32,024 bases of DNA from an uncultured Lachnospiraceae bacterium (GTDB lineage Bacteria > Bacillota > Clostridia > Lachnospirales > Lachnospiraceae): contig CADBFE010000022.1 in NCBI GenBank assembly GCA_902793845.1, positions 1 to 32,024 of the forward strand. The letters are read 5' to 3'. Each line of letters starts with the position of its first letter. Within the stretch, counting starts at the first letter, position 1. The notes under the pieces are model-generated. The model saw nothing but the letters and a program-made list of their open reading frames with translations. It did no database searches and was not told the origin of the DNA. Both the position numbers and the translations under genes were made by a program. Below, piece after piece: positions 9,679-24,540 of this stretch.

Positions 9679-11367
9679 ATGGATAATAAATCGATCAAGG
9701 AAATCAGGCTCGGCGACCTGATGGTCAGTGCCGGATATATTACTGACGCACAGCTCGGTGAGGCTCTTGCCCTTCAAAAGCAGGATAAATCAAAGCGAGT
9801 CGGACAGATCCTCATAGAGCAGGGATATGTATCTGAGAGGCAGATGCTCACAGCTCTTGCAGACAGACTGCAGACGAGCCTCATAGATGTATCAACATAT
9901 CCTGTTGAGGAAGAGGCCGTTAATACCATCCCGGTACAGATGGCCCAGCAGTATACGGCTCTGCCCGTATCCATACATGACGGTATACTGACGGTAGCTC
10001 TGAATGATCCCCTTAACCTCTATGCGATAGAGGATATCAGGCAGACGACAGGTATGAGTATCAATACCATCCTGGCAGAACTTGAGCCCCTGAAGAAAGC
10101 CATCACATATCATTATGCTGCCGTAAAGGCCCGCCAGGCTGCAGCCAATGCCAGTGTAAATGCATCGACAAGCGAGACCCAGGAAGTCATCATTGACGCC
10201 GGAGTCAGCGCAGATGATGCCCCTATCATAAACCTCGTAAACTCACTGCTTGATAAGGCATATCAGGACGGAGCATCCGATGTACATATCGAGCCTTTTG
10301 AGAAGGAAGTCATCGTCCGTATGCGTACAGACGGTGTCCTCATTAATTACATGACCCTCAACAAAAATGTGCAGGGAGCTCTCGTAGCCCGTATCAAGAT
10401 TATGGGCGAGCTTGATATCGCGGAGCGCCGTGTACCCCAGGACGGTCACTTCCGTATCCGTATCAGGGATCAGATAGTAAACGTCCGTGTCAGCGTCATC
10501 CCCACAGTATTTGGCGAGAAAGTCGTAATGCGAATCCTCGCATCAAACTCTGACATCGACCGTAGCGAGACATTTGGTATGACTCCCGAGAATTATGAGA
10601 AGTTTGCCAAGATGCTAAAGTCTCCTAACGGACTTATTTATATTACAGGACCTACAGGTTCAGGTAAGACGACGACTCTTTACATGGCTCTCGGATCACT
10701 GTCCACAAAGCCTGTAAATATCTCGACTATCGAGGATCCCGTTGAGAAAAACCTGCCTCATCTGAATCAGATGCAGGTACATCCCAATGCAGGCCTCACA
10801 TTTGAGGTGGGCCTCCGTGCACTCCTGCGTCAGGATCCCGATATCATAATGGTAGGTGAGACGAGAGACCCTGAGACAGCCGGTATATCACTCCGTGCCG
10901 CTATCACAGGTCACCTGGTGCTTTCGACCCTCCATACTAATGATGCTGTTTCTACCATAATCAGACTTGTCGATATGGGTGCAGAGCCTTATCTGCTCTC
11001 ATCAGCACTGGTAGGTTCCGTGGCTCAGCGACTCGTCAGAAAAGTATGCCCGTACTGTAGTCAGGTCACAGGTCTCGATACATCGGAGATAGCATTTGTC
11101 GGCAGGGATATACCTACAGCCAGAAAGGCATGCGGATGTGCCAAGTGTCACAACTCGGGATATCTCGGACGTATCGCTGTCCATGAAGTCCTGGTAGCAG
11201 ATAAAAATGTACGCCGTATGATCACTGCCGGAGCTACAGCAGATGAGATCAGTAAATATGCGATCGAGGCCCAGGGTATGGAGACCATCAAGCAGGCCGG
11301 CATCCGCCTGGTTGAAGAAGGTATCACCACCATGGAAGAACTTCAGAGGATTGCATATAACGACTAG
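9679..11367 (+). CDS. pilB: Type IV pilus assembly ATPase PilB (GspE family) with MshEN-type N-terminal domain
   Basis: The 562-residue length fits PilB. The Walker A motif GPTGSGKT is at 324-331, followed by the Asp box region (STIEDPVE), Walker B with DPDIIMVGETRD and the His box (GHLVLSTLHTND). A zinc-binding set follows: C457-x2-C460 and C487-x2-C490, typical of PilB/GspE and absent from PilT. The N terminus holds two copies of a 24-residue pattern (10-33 and 40-63) with RLG or RVG at the start and regularly spaced Leu/Ile, which fits the MshEN c-di-GMP-binding motif pair. The enzyme hydrolyses ATP to drive pilin polymerisation at the PilC platform. A GAGGTAGAG ribosome site precedes the ATG 15 bases after pilO. 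Confidence 0.96.
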   Translation: MDNKSIKEIRLGDLMVSAGYITDAQLGEALALQKQDKSKRVGQILIEQGYVSERQMLTALADRLQTSLIDVSTYPVEEEAVNTIPVQMAQQYTALPVSIHDGILTVALNDPLNLYAIEDIRQTTGMSINTILAELEPLKKAITYHYAAVKARQAAANASVNASTSETQEVIIDAGVSADDAPIINLVNSLLDKAYQDGASDVHIEPFEKEVIVRMRTDGVLINYMTLNKNVQGALVARIKIMGELDIAERRVPQDGHFRIRIRDQIVNVRVSVIPTVFGEKVVMRILASNSDIDRSETFGMTPENYEKFAKMLKSPNGLIYITGPTGSGKTTTLYMALGSLSTKPVNISTIEDPVEKNLPHLNQMQVHPNAGLTFEVGLRALLRQDPDIIMVGETRDPETAGISLRAAITGHLVLSTLHTNDAVSTIIRLVDMGAEPYLLSSALVGSVAQRLVRKVCPYCSQVTGLDTSEIAFVGRDIPTARKACGCAKCHNSGYLGRIAVHEVLVADKNVRRMITAGATADEISKYAIEAQGMETIKQAGIRLVEEGITTMEELQRIAYND

Positions 11368-11522: not shown

Positions 11523-11966
11523 ATGAAGAAGAATAATAATAAAGGTTTTACCCTCGTTGAGCTTATCGTAGTTCTCGTAATCCTCGCAATCCTTGCAGCT
11601 ATCCTCGTACCTACATTACTTGGATACATCGACAGAGCAAGATCTGAGAAGGATTATTCAACAGCACAGTCTATAAGAGTAGCAGTTCAGGCTGAGATTG
11701 ATGAGCTTTACGGAAAAGGAACTAATAATGTTACATGGGACAATGTTACAAGTAATCAGGATAAAGTATTCAAATTAGTTGGTGCTGTTAAAGAGGGTAG
11801 TGATTACAAACTTGACGGTCAGAAATTATCATTGGTAAGTGGTACAGTAACTAATAACCAGATTGTTAATATTACAGTTTCTATTAATGGAAAGAATTAT
11901 CATTATACATCAGTTGCAAGTGGTAATAACGCTGCCAATACCTGGTATACAGATAGTACTAATTAA
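11523..11966 (+). CDS. Type IV pilin (prepilin with class III signal)
   Basis: The start at 11523 is chosen because AAAGGAG (11507-11513) precedes it by nine bases and because it gives a short basic leader, MKKNNNKG, before FTLVELIVVLVILAILAAI. This is a canonical prepilin peptidase site: cleavage after Gly8, Phe at +1 and Glu at +5. The mature protein has about 139 residues, with the long N-terminal helix and a small Asn/Thr-rich globular domain. It has no cysteines, so no C-terminal disulfide loop as in Gram-negative type IVa pilins. It is the last gene of the pilus locus and is closed by an intrinsic terminator. It is the likely main subunit, because no other class III signal is visible in the window. 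Confidence 0.93.
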   Translation: MKKNNNKGFTLVELIVVLVILAILAAILVPTLLGYIDRARSEKDYSTAQSIRVAVQAEIDELYGKGTNNVTWDNVTSNQDKVFKLVGAVKEGSDYKLDGQKLSLVSGTVTNNQIVNITVSINGKNYHYTSVASGNNAANTWYTDSTN

Positions 11967-12012: not shown

Positions 12013-12020
12013 AATGTTTT

Positions 12021-12102
12021 ATGGTCCGTCTGAATTCCATGTAAACGGCCGCCTGTTCTAGTGCTCTGGGCTAATTGTTCACGTGGAAAATCAAACGGAT
12101 CA
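12021..12102. repeat. Palindromic intergenic element, copy A (short form)
   Basis: The outer 25-28 bases on each side are imperfect inverted repeats (left arm begins ATGGTCCGTCTGA, right arm ends TCAAACGGATCAT). The element matches copy B at 13651-13839 in inverted orientation: GGCTAATTGTTCA at 12069-12081 is the reverse complement of 13673-13685, and CGCCTGTTC at 12050-12058 of 13802-13810. It contains no open frame. The remaining bases between the pilin terminator and the ATPase promoter show nothing else recognisable. Confidence 0.75.
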
Positions 12103-12188
12103 TATACGTAAAAGTGCAATACTTCTGTGCATAAGTTTACGGCAAAATAGAAAGTTATGGTAAGATTACGGAAATTTTGTCTAGATAG

Positions 12189-12216
12189 TTGACTGAAAGT
12201 TATAACAAGTTATAAA
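12189..12216 (+). promoter_or_regulatory. Promoter of the ATPase gene, overlapped by an operator-like palindrome
   Basis: TTGACT (12189-12194) and TATAAA (12211-12216) are separated by 16 bases, close to a housekeeping sigma promoter. The first 16-bp palindrome (12200-12215) fills the spacer and nearly all of the -10 box, the place expected for a repressor site. The gene start is about 80 bases downstream. Confidence 0.65.
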
Positions 12217-12284
12217 ATATAAATAAAGTTATAACAACTTATAACAAGTTATAAATGAAATGAAAATGTTATAACAAGTTATAA
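12200..12284. promoter_or_regulatory. Three copies of palindrome TTATAACAAGTTATAA (operator-like)
   Basis: Perfect copies lie at 12200-12215, 12239-12254 and 12269-12284; a further half site TTATAAC is at 12229-12235. Each is a 7-bp inverted repeat around AA. The centres are 39 and 30 bases apart, so the last two are about three helical turns apart. The third copy abuts the AAGGAG ribosome site at 12285-12290 and could also hinder translation. The arrangement suggests cooperative binding by a dimeric regulator, possibly the encoded ATPase with its winged-helix-like C terminus. Confidence 0.85.
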
Positions 12285-12296
12285 AAGGAGAAAAAT

Positions 12297-13346
12297 ATGG
12301 CAAATAATCCGTTTACACTCACCTTTGGGACAGAACCCATACAGTATATAAACAGAAATACTCAGACAAACGAGATAATCAGTACATTTTCAGGGGAAAT
12401 GCCTGCTACAAATGTGTATATGATATCGGGTGTCAGAGGATCGGGAAAAACCGTGTTACTGACGAATATTGCTGACTACTTTGAAAAAAAGGATGAGTGG
12501 ATAGTAGTAAATGTTACGCCGGATGTCGATATATTAAATACTGTTGCAGCAAAACTTTATAGCCGTTCTGAACTCAAGAAGTTGTTTGTGCAGGCCAAAC
12601 TTGACTTGTCTGCTTTCGGGCTAGGAGTATCAATAGAAAAAGGAAAACAGATTTTTGACATTGAGACTGCTCTTGAGAAAATGCTTGCAGAACTTGGCAA
12701 AAAGAAAAAGAGAGTATTAATAACCATTGACGAAGTGGTAAAAAATAATAACATAAAAATTTTCGCCGGAGTGTTCCAACTGTTTATAAGGCAGAAACTC
12801 CCGGTATATCTTATAATGACGGGATTGTATGATAATATTTATAATCTTCAGAATGAAGATACACTTACTTTTCTCTACCGAGCGCCAAAAGTGGTTCTTG
12901 AACCACTCAGTATTGGTGCTATAGCATCAAGCTATGCAAAGGTATTTGATATGGATCGAGAAGAAGCGGGTAATATGGCCAAACTGACAAAAGGATATCC
13001 TTTTGCATATCAGGTACTGGGATATTTATTCTGGGATAGCAGGGAAAAGAAGAAAAATTCCAAAATTGAAGATGTGATACCGGAATATGATCATATGCTT
13101 GAGGAATATGTATATGAAAAGATTTGGTCAGAACTCTCACAGAAAGAAAAAGACATAATAGCAATTCTTGCCGAAAATGAGTCGACAAAAGTCATAGACA
13201 TAAGAGAACGCCTGAATTATAAATCAAATGAGATGTCAGTATACCGTGACAGATTAAAAAAGAAGGGCATAATTGACGTATCAAGTTATGGAAGTATCTC
13301 ATTAAAACTTCCTAGATTCGGAGAAGTAATCAGTTACTGGGTTTGA
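12297..13346 (+). CDS. AAA+/STAND-like P-loop ATPase with C-terminal winged-helix-like region
   Basis: The 349-residue protein has Walker A GVRGSGKT (45-52) and Walker B VLITIDE (140-146), followed by a segment with LPVYLIMTGLYDNI that fits sensor 1 of ATPases of the archaeal-type/STAND group. The C-terminal 80 residues (about 270-349) contain LSQKEKDIIAILAE, then a helix-turn-helix-like stretch with SNEMSVYRDRLKKKGIIDV, as in a winged helix. No nuclease or transmembrane part is fused. Members of this family are often annotated only as ATP-binding protein, and the substrate is unknown. The start has AAGGAG six bases upstream. Codon use is visibly more A/T-rich than in the flanking pil and dxr genes, consistent with acquisition. 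The zinc-ribbon gene follows after 28 bases, and palindromic elements lie on both sides. Confidence 0.85.
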   Translation: MANNPFTLTFGTEPIQYINRNTQTNEIISTFSGEMPATNVYMISGVRGSGKTVLLTNIADYFEKKDEWIVVNVTPDVDILNTVAAKLYSRSELKKLFVQAKLDLSAFGLGVSIEKGKQIFDIETALEKMLAELGKKKKRVLITIDEVVKNNNIKIFAGVFQLFIRQKLPVYLIMTGLYDNIYNLQNEDTLTFLYRAPKVVLEPLSIGAIASSYAKVFDMDREEAGNMAKLTKGYPFAYQVLGYLFWDSREKKKNSKIEDVIPEYDHMLEEYVYEKIWSELSQKEKDIIAILAENESTKVIDIRERLNYKSNEMSVYRDRLKKKGIIDVSSYGSISLKLPRFGEVISYWV

Positions 13347-13374
13347 GAATGATTTATGAAAGGACTTTTGATAT

Positions 13375-13641
13375 ATGTTTTACGTACCTGACGGAACAGA
13401 GAGATGCGGATTTTATGAATGTGAGGAATGCGGTAATCGTTTCCTCGATATACGTATAGCACCGACACTGGTGTGTCCATACTGCGGGGAAGAGCCGGAT
13501 ATGGAGATCGGGCCGGACGAGGAGATGCCGGACATGACTGAGCACGCAAAGTTGATCCAGATGCTTGAGGGAGAGGATGTAGAAAAATACGACACACTGC
13601 TTAGTCTGGCAATTACAGGCGGAGACTACACTTGGATATAG
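13375..13641 (+). CDS. Small zinc-ribbon protein
   Basis: The 88-residue product carries C16-x2-C19 and C34-x2-C37, a zinc-ribbon arrangement, followed by an acidic linker (about 39-54) and a C-terminal helix with EHAKLIQMLEGEDVEKYDTLLSLAI. There is no nuclease, helicase or other catalytic motif. AAAGGA precedes the ATG. It is probably cotranscribed with the ATPase gene 28 bases upstream and ends ten bases before palindromic element B. It may be a nucleic-acid- or protein-binding partner; function is not known. Confidence 0.78.
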   Translation: MFYVPDGTERCGFYECEECGNRFLDIRIAPTLVCPYCGEEPDMEIGPDEEMPDMTEHAKLIQMLEGEDVEKYDTLLSLAITGGDYTWI

Positions 13642-13650
13642 TTTTATCCG

Positions 13651-13839
13651 AGGTCCGTCATGCTATTTGCCATGAACAATTAGCCGGGAGCCTTAGAACA
13701 TTGTCATCCGAATAGGCAATTTCGAGAAAGCTGTTTGAGACGCGCAGCGTCGAGTTTTTCTCGGAATTGCCACTCTTATTCGGATGGCTGATGTTCTTGG
13801 CGAACAGGCGACCGTTCATGGTAAATGCTGACGGGCCCT
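13651..13839. repeat. Palindromic intergenic element, copy B (long form with inner hairpin)
   Basis: The 312-base gap between the zinc-ribbon gene and the next gene is mostly this imperfect inverted repeat. The outer arms 13651-13677 and 13814-13839 pair (GGTCCGTCA... with ...TGACGGGCCC). An inner palindrome pairs 13695-13729 with about 13755-13797 (CATCCGAATA with TATTCGGATG), and at the centre GACGC and GCGTC close on GCA. Compared with copy A it carries about 106 extra bases between two GAACA copies (13696-13700 and 13802-13806). No T run follows, so it is not a simple terminator. It may be a MITE-like repeat or a structured RNA. Confidence 0.8.
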
Positions 13840-13869
13840 ACACAGTATCGAAATTTACACTTTGTTCGA

Positions 13870-13897
13870 TTGACATACCGAACTAACGTTCTATAAT
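13870..13897 (+). promoter_or_regulatory. Strong consensus promoter
   Basis: TTGACA (13870-13875) and TATAAT (13892-13897) both match the housekeeping consensus exactly, with a 16-base spacer. Transcription would start near 13904 and cover the leader peptide and the 95-residue gene. Confidence 0.88.
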
Positions 13898-14399: not shown

Positions 14400-15578
14400 A
14401 TGAAACGAATCATTATCCTCGGTTCCACAGGCTCGATCGGAACCCAGACAGCAGATGTAGTCAGAGACAATAACAGGAGAGCAAAAGAGCGGGGAGAGGG
14501 AGAACCCTTTAAGATAATGGGCCTCGCTGCCAATAAAAATTCTGACATGGTTGAAAAGCAGGTCAGGGAGTTTGGCGTGAAATATGTAGCTATGTATGAT
14601 GAGGGCGCGGCAAATGATCTAAGGAAACGCCTTAAGGATACGGATGCTGTTGTGTACTCCGGCATGGACGGCCTCAATGAACTGGCTGGCAAGGATGATT
14701 ATGATGTACTCGTGACAGCGATAGTCGGTATGATCGGTATCAGGCCAACTATTACTGCTATCAAGAATAAAAAGGATATAGCACTGGCCAATAAGGAGAC
14801 ACTGGTTACGGCAGGCCATATCATCATGCCCCTCGCAAAGGAAAATAATGTAAAGATACTGCCTGTTGACTCGGAGCACAGCGCCATATTCCAGTCGCTC
14901 CAGGGCAACCCTGAGGGCAGGATAAAGCGTATCCTCTTAACCGCGTCAGGTGGACCTTTCAGGGGATATACAAAAGAGCAGCTTAAGGATGTAACTGTTG
15001 AGAGAGCATTAAAGCATCCTAACTGGACTATGGGCAGAAAAATCACCATCGACTCTGCAACCATGGTAAATAAAGGACTGGAAGTAATGGAGGCCAGATG
15101 GCTCTTTAATGTGGGATATGATGATATCACGGTAGTCGTTCATCCCCAGTCAATACTCCACTCAGCAGTAGAATATGTGGACGGCGCAGTGATAGGCCAG
15201 ATGGGTATGCCGGATATGAAGCTGCCTATTCAGTATGCCCTGTTTTACCCGGGCAGAGAGCTGATGGAGGGTAACAAGCTTGACCTCTTCAGTGTAGGTC
15301 ATCTTGATTTCATAAAGCCGGATCCGGAGGTATTTGTAGGACTGGACCTGGCATTTAAGGCAGGCAGAAAGGCAGGCAATCTGCCTACTGTATTTAATGC
15401 GGCCAACGAGATGGCGGTAGCCCTGTTCCTGGATAAAAAGATATCATTTACAGGGATCACTGACATCATAAAAGACTGCATGGATAATATCGGATTTAAG
15501 GACGCTCCGTCCCTTGAGGAGATACTTGAGACAGAGAGCGCCACATATGAATTCATAAAATCAAAATATATTAAATAA
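14400..15578 (+). CDS. dxr: 1-deoxy-D-xylulose-5-phosphate reductoisomerase
   Basis: The 392-residue length is standard. The NADPH-binding loop GSTGSIG is at 8-14. The metal site LPVDSEHSAIFQ contains D157 and E159, and ASGGPFRG, HPNWTMGRKITIDSATMVNKGLEVMEA (split across 210-240) and the HPQSILHSAVEY segment are all family signatures. The enzyme converts 1-deoxyxylulose 5-phosphate to methylerythritol 4-phosphate, the committed step of the MEP isoprenoid pathway, in the cytoplasm. A GGAG site lies 12 bases ahead of the ATG. It heads the run dxr-rseP-ispG-polC. The expected upstream partners uppS and cdsA are missing and unrelated genes take their place. Confidence 0.98.
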   Translation: MKRIIILGSTGSIGTQTADVVRDNNRRAKERGEGEPFKIMGLAANKNSDMVEKQVREFGVKYVAMYDEGAANDLRKRLKDTDAVVYSGMDGLNELAGKDDYDVLVTAIVGMIGIRPTITAIKNKKDIALANKETLVTAGHIIMPLAKENNVKILPVDSEHSAIFQSLQGNPEGRIKRILLTASGGPFRGYTKEQLKDVTVERALKHPNWTMGRKITIDSATMVNKGLEVMEARWLFNVGYDDITVVVHPQSILHSAVEYVDGAVIGQMGMPDMKLPIQYALFYPGRELMEGNKLDLFSVGHLDFIKPDPEVFVGLDLAFKAGRKAGNLPTVFNAANEMAVALFLDKKISFTGITDIIKDCMDNIGFKDAPSLEEILETESATYEFIKSKYIK

Positions 15579-24390: not shown

Positions 24391-24419
24391 AACGAATGTT
24401 GCTGATGCGACAAATAAAT

Positions 24420-24491
24420 GGCTCGTTGGTCAAGGGGTTAAGACGCTGCCCTCTCACGGCAGAATCAGCGGTTCGATTCCGCTACGAGCTG
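24420..24491 (+). tRNA. tRNA-Glu (CTC anticodon)
   Basis: A full cloverleaf can be drawn: acceptor GGCTCGT with ACGAGCT (G-T at the first pair), D arm with TGGTCAAGGGGTTAAGAC, anticodon stem CTGCC/GGCAG with loop CTCTCAC giving anticodon CTC, and T arm AGCGG-TTCGATT-CCGCT. The discriminator is G at 24491. The 3' CCA is not encoded. It has its own promoter and an immediate terminator. Glu tRNAs normally use TTC; CTC reads GAG. Confidence 0.95.
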
Positions 24492-24498
24492 TACCTTG

Positions 24499-24540
24499 AA
24501 AACCTCGTAAACATCATGTTTATGAGGTTTTTTGTTTTTT
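24499..24540 (+). terminator. Intrinsic terminator after tRNA-Glu
   Basis: A 15-bp stem (24499-24513 with 24517-24531; one G-T pair) with loop TCA runs into a T-rich stretch. It follows the tRNA by 7 bases. The rest of the gap to 24639 shows no gene. Confidence 0.88.

Follow-up and report, generated by a model that had tools for sequence, protein, structure and literature searches.

Extragenic hairpins of the REP/BIME type, which occur with RAYT (Y1) transposases, are systems in which a structure and not a duplication would be recognised, as would be the case for the element described here. According to PMC3733652, REPs have a size between 20 and 40 bp, unlike this element. They are also numerous. 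The MITE-like repeats ERIC/IRU, Correia/NEMIS, YPAL/RU-2, and RUP also share features with it: PMC2229807 describes them as dispersed, non-coding, intergenic sequences of 100–200 bp that would be transcribed into long stem-loops, and Correia elements likewise come in two sizes (107/155), depending on whether an internal piece is present. In contrast to these repeats, the family presented here has few copies, no target duplication above chance, a conserved asymmetric apical core, and orthologues that are oppositely oriented. In addition, a search with one copy (B) against 20,395 E. coli records, as a test for similarity to ERIC and other E. coli repeats, gave no sequence match. Finally, quasi-palindromes are corrected by template switching between inverted repeats, which homogenises the arms and inverts the spacer according to passages in PMC8604942 and PMC8794818. 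Arms kept identical by double changes and an inverted spacer are also found here, but the inverted unit is about 150 nt long and conserved, whereas those passages report loop and spacer inversions of a few bases, and the palindrome is at the same time a repeat family.

The DNA analysed in this study (the window) is 32,024 nucleotides long and comprises the whole of contig C22; the genome is split into 146 contigs and totals 2.44 Mb. It contains two hairpins, A and B. We favour, with moderate confidence, the reading that they are two oppositely oriented copies of a low-copy, dispersed, MITE-like hairpin repeat of about 190 nt that is non-coding, with a core that is kept and arms that would have been homogenised by template switching, the same process having flipped the core.

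Organization of the Locus

The locus follows the order type IV pilus cluster, A, ATPase gene, zinc-ribbon gene, B, a gene for a protein of 95 aa that matches no known family, and dxr (Table 1). The first-pass annotation had described two homologous palindromes on opposite strands around the ATPase and zinc-ribbon genes, and alignments, folds, and shuffles agree on both. Two inverted matches connect the copies, one of 39 nt (12020-12058 against 13802-13840, 72%) and one of 28 nt (12054-12081 against 13673-13700, 86%). Folded as RNA, B is a rod of about 190 nt, interrupted by short unpaired segments (-102.2 kcal/mol, z -9.87; 0/200 shuffles as good), while A folded as DNA has a z value of -4.32 on one strand and -3.22 on the other (0/200 shuffles each). 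B contains no open reading frame of at least 80 aa.

Table 1. Position and strand of hairpin copies A and B, the conserved parts of B, and the genes around them in the window.
Feature	Position	Strand	Remark
T2SSE ATPase gene	9679-11367		Type IV pilus cluster
Pilin gene	11523-11966		Type IV pilus cluster
Copy A, short hairpin	12020-12104	-	Family member without the central 106 nt of B
ATPase (ATPase_2 / AAA type), 349 aa	12297-13346	+	Between the copies, outside the element
Zinc-ribbon protein, 88 aa	13375-13641	+	Outside the element
Copy B, full-length hairpin element, ~190 nt	13651-13840	+	
5' box GAACAATTAGCC in B	13674-13685	+	Conserved, partly unpaired in the fold
First GAACA repeat	13697-13701	+	From this point A runs on with what follows the second GAACA
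Apical motif CTGTTTGAG-(hairpin)-CGAGTTT	13731-13757	+	Almost invariant across the family
3'-side bulge of the long stem, ~5 unpaired bases	13772-13776	+	Level the same in the other full copies
Second GAACA repeat	13803-13807	+	From the A-B alignment
dxr	14400-15578		

Copy A aligns along its whole length with the outer halves of B, the piece between the two GAACA repeats being absent. This alignment scores 35.5, whereas dinucleotide-shuffled versions of A (2000 of them) reach -6.2 on average and 8.0 at most. Searched for across the genome in one piece, A gives a weak match (E 0.0099 in the search with B, E 0.36 with a covariance model). Within the window the model matches A at 12029-12096 on the minus strand with 21.3 bits (E 0.0047) and B with 186.7 bits, B itself being among the six sequences from which the model was built. 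The kinship of A beyond chance follows from the two colinear halves taken together and not from a single-piece match.

A Dispersed Repeat Family

A search of the whole genome with B revealed four more full copies, on contigs C121, C117, C3, and C92. The covariance model, built from the five own copies and one copy of a sister species (the alignment including A being left out), found the same five full copies and A in this genome; matches on the opposite strand at the same places arise because the element is a palindrome. Contigs C121 and C117 carry a duplicated locus with an antiporter gene, the element, and a surface-protein gene. From our reading of the translations, two of the four further full copies, those of the duplicated locus, stand beside a Kef-type antiporter gene, one beside alaS, and one beside a phosphatase-like gene. 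Of the two readings offered in the first-pass annotation, the one that takes A and B as members of a dispersed repeat family is supported by the five full copies and A, with four full copies beside unrelated genes.

Family copies are all intergenic and occur in both orientations. The other own copies are 79–88% alike to B. Their arms of about 26 bp differ between copies yet are still paired, while the core is asymmetric and conserved, with an ACAATYAGCC box, an apical CTGTYTGAG-hairpin-CGAGTTT, and the 3'-side bulge. The apical motif may allow tandem G-A pairs, judged by eye.

The family has the inverted-repeat arms, the length of 190 nt (the limit being about 200 bp), the non-coding nature, and the dispersal (five full copies and A; three copies in genome G467) of a MITE. 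The target-site duplication of a classical DDE-mobilised MITE, which the first-pass annotation had proposed to look for, did not rise above random places in any of 11 copies (lowest 15 of 100 controls), which speaks against mobilisation by a classical transposase. No empty site emerged either, the sites of B and of the C3 copy not being found in the one sister genome compared, which is 67% complete. The family may be mobile.

Distribution Beyond the Own Genome

Among 144 genomes the element is present in two, its own and that of one sister species, G033. With the covariance model, at least five of 397 Lachnospiraceae genomes match at E up to 0.01, the own genome among them; this search used stricter filters. 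Genome G467 contains three copies (65 to 78 bits) and G186 one (52.6 bits), while G195 and G185 each have one weak match, which scores 33-34 bits at per-genome E values of 0.0012 and 4.3e-4 in this set of 397 and may be due to chance. In the G467 copies ACAATCAGCC and CTTA are retained, as is the apical CTGTTTGAG-hairpin-CGAGTTT; their 5' box reads ACAATYAGCC and their arms are quite different. Self-complementary stretches of about 320 and about 332 bases are found in G186 and G195. The latter (locus L127, 1413-1744 on G195:C1) is 332 bases long, is 83% identical to its own reverse complement, and lies between divergently read genes; it shows an apical TGTTTGA...GAGTTT and its model match is weak.

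A motif pattern searched genome-wide gave five records, of which L069 is the sole member, the other four not being such hairpins. The same kind of pattern was searched four times in viral contigs, with 1, 0, 41, and at least 120 matches. The single match of the first search (L074) was rejected, having no such hairpin, and the covariance model found no element at 150 viral pattern loci, among the matches listed. For 149 listed viral matches the flanking hairpins were compared with shuffles of flanks length-matched to the observed values: three exceed the shuffle maximum of 11.0, namely L234 (13.5) and L225 and L187 (one sequence, 11.5). L234 (7008-7195 of IMG/VR 3300040801_005162) has the sole clearly longer hairpin around CTGTTTGAG...CGAGTTT among these 149. 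The covariance model gives no match to it, and it is possibly a distant family member, possibly a chance match. Searches of phages and plasmids with B, and of plasmids with one G467 copy, gave no match, and an origin from a phage or plasmid was rejected. A search of published papers for the core sequence found none; two plant papers contained a 14-base string.

Base Pair Changes and the Reversed Orthologue

The stems change with their pairing preserved. Of the 69 pairs in the own-genome alignment, 28 carry changes on both sides; double changes make up 44 cells and single-side changes 7, and 95.6% of the cells are paired compared with 83.8% in shuffles. For the six matches in four other genomes, both sides differ in 50 of 59 pairs. 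Double changes account for 89 cells there and single-side changes for 7, and 85.5% of the cells are paired against 57.0% in shuffles, in an alignment that was fitted to the model and is hence biased toward pairing. The covariation signal of both alignments disappears once the pairing partner is shifted by 1 to 3 columns.

On contig C92 of the own genome and contig C79 of G033 the element has the same two neighbours, and the copy between them is reversed relative to these neighbours. About 60 nt before the turned copy, G033 still contains about 33 nt of the old arm in the C92 orientation. Read in the same orientation, the two cores differ at 2 of 148 positions, compared with 12 of 94 in the left intergenic flank (Fisher p 3e-4) and 76 of 254 four-fold sites in three flanking genes. 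In the stems 4 pairs show a double change and none a single-side change; 2 further changes affect unpaired bases. That another copy inserted here anew is less likely, since the other own copies are 79–88% like B and these cores are near-identical. The duplicated C121/C117 locus is a counter-example with respect to the flank, as the difference between core (5/146) and flank (10/133) is not significant there (p 0.18); its four-fold sites (77/179) differ far more than the core. Double arm changes and inversion of the spacer, the two marks of a palindrome shaped by template switching, are both present, in one orthologous pair only.

Such covariation is also what a structured RNA would leave, either free-standing or within 3' UTRs, with several copies whose core loops serve as the binding site of a protein or ligand and whose pairing is kept by selection on the RNA. 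We regard this as rather unlikely. It would account for the strong covariation together with the conserved unpaired boxes, and for a core that changes far more slowly than four-fold sites. The motif strand is also the better fold in 9 of 13 hairpins. Isolated G-U (G-T) mismatches outnumber A-C mismatches by 17 to 6 (p 0.035) in the five full own copies and the sister copy, a count that leaves out A (with A, 19 to 9, p 0.087) and that would favour an RNA, but over all 13 hairpins the excess is not clear (43 against 33, p 0.30); the mismatch counts therefore give no firm sign that the RNA strand alone matters. Orientation follows no rule, the element being on the strand of the flanking gene in 3 of 11 copies and on the other in 8 (p 0.23), and orthologous copies are oppositely oriented. 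Single-side changes, moreover, are few (7/96 changed paired cells in the other genomes, 7/51 in the own genome). Rfam holds no such family: in the window a tRNA alone reached its gathering cut-off, and the five copy loci, searched at E up to 10, gave chance-level matches with none at its cut-off.

The elements could also be two-way terminators or protectors of mRNA 3' ends behind genes, which we consider improbable. B begins 9 nt past the stop codon of the zinc-ribbon gene and the C92 element directly at a stop codon, and a terminator is scored at the apical hairpin of B with GAGTTTTT behind it. Directly after B and before the 95-aa gene there is a 12-of-12 promoter-like site (TTGACA, 16, TATAAT; 13870-13897), but such sites are overall at chance level (11 found, 9.1 in shuffles). 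The T run is lost in the G467 copies, A and the C3 copy already lie behind ordinary terminator-like hairpins, and long arms with conserved loops are more than a terminator needs.

ATPase and Zinc-Ribbon Genes

Homologues of the ATPase (E up to 1e-10) occur in 24 of the 144 genomes, the own genome included, with up to eight per genome. At 29 homologue loci besides the own one, the covariance model found no element (a 14-bit match at L052, E 0.76, is at chance level) and no zinc-ribbon homologue was seen by tblastn. Three own contigs with ATPase paralogues (C60, C69, and C88) lack the element as well. An inverted-repeat scan of the 30 ATPase loci, with fixed limits that are unsuited to the partial loci L058, L060, and L062, singled out the own locus and L051; the repeat of L051 is different (27 nt, 93%, several pieces) and was rejected as the same ends. 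Codons richer in A/T than those of the neighbours had been noted for both genes, which is true of the ATPase gene (GC3 0.337) and not of the zinc-ribbon gene (GC3 0.528); the T2SSE gene, dxr, and the gene after dxr have values of 0.51-0.55 and the pilin gene 0.264.

The idea that the palindromes are the ends of a mobile or defence cassette carrying these two genes draws on the inverted orientation of A and B and on their 3' arms, which are alike at 24 of 33 positions against 10-19 of 33 between B and other copies, but it is very improbable given an element that also occurs without the ATPase and ATPase loci that do not have the same ends. The first-pass annotation had itself named the ATPase pair in relatives without flanking elements as evidence against the cassette, which fails this test on the counts of ATPase homologues (24) and element (2) among the 144 genomes and on the 29 homologue loci. 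Under the repeat-family reading, the two genes would stand between A and B by coincidence.

The region before the ATPase start codon (12186-12296) contains a short direct-repeat array, and homologues each have an array of their own (GTTATAAC, ACAGTAAA, AAGTATAC, etc.). These arrays beat shuffles in 25 of 26 tested regions from L040-L068, the test covering 26 of 30 ATPase loci (L058, L060, L061, and L062 left out). From their sequences they look like self-regulation with co-diverging operators, a feature of the ATPase and not of the hairpins. Before the ATPase promoter, GTTATGGTAAGATT (12160-12180) matches by eye the upstream repeat of other homologues such as L068, and is possibly a remnant of the control region of another paralogue.

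A pilus locus of this kind in a further species of the genus (L057, 1074-4020 of G019:C71) carries a different ATPase of the family, about 41% identical, between the T2SSE and pilin genes, while that of the window follows the pilin gene. G033 has about 14 kb after a tRNA-Glu (L279, 1-14206 of G033:C147), the far end of which repeats sequence of the tRNA region of the window (24418-24537). This integrated mobilisable element, with an integrase, a coupling protein, a Mob/Pre protein, and a resolvase, is absent from the window.

Proposed Mechanism and Significance

For the repeat family we propose that the element folds on one strand during replication and that the polymerase then copies one arm from the other by template switching, which would produce the double Watson-Crick changes. 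The same switch would turn the core round, as in C92 compared with its orthologue in the sister species; for the family as a whole, template switching is suggested by the sequences of this one orthologous pair. Deletion between short repeats flanking a hairpin is the usual mark of slippage, and slippage between the GAACA repeats would have deleted the middle of A. The core would be kept by being recognised as a hairpin by a partner, most likely an enzyme acting in trans to disperse the repeat. This could be a nuclease or transposase that recognises hairpins and leaves no target duplication. As a tentative extension, the copies may belong to a new hairpin family of several genera of the Lachnospiraceae, with a strand-specific core bound by a dedicated partner as RNA or single-stranded DNA. 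With arms that are rewritten and a core that flips, it would be a switchable, self-repairing palindrome.

Inverted repeats around a gene need not mean the ends of a cassette. Covariation is usually read as proof of a functional RNA, and this family combines strong covariation with signs that it can result from DNA copying errors in a palindrome, specifically few single-side changes, a flipped core, and a remnant of an old arm. RNA and DNA-copying causes can be separated by comparing the several copies within a genome and those of a sister species, which makes the family a useful case for the evolution of DNA hairpins.
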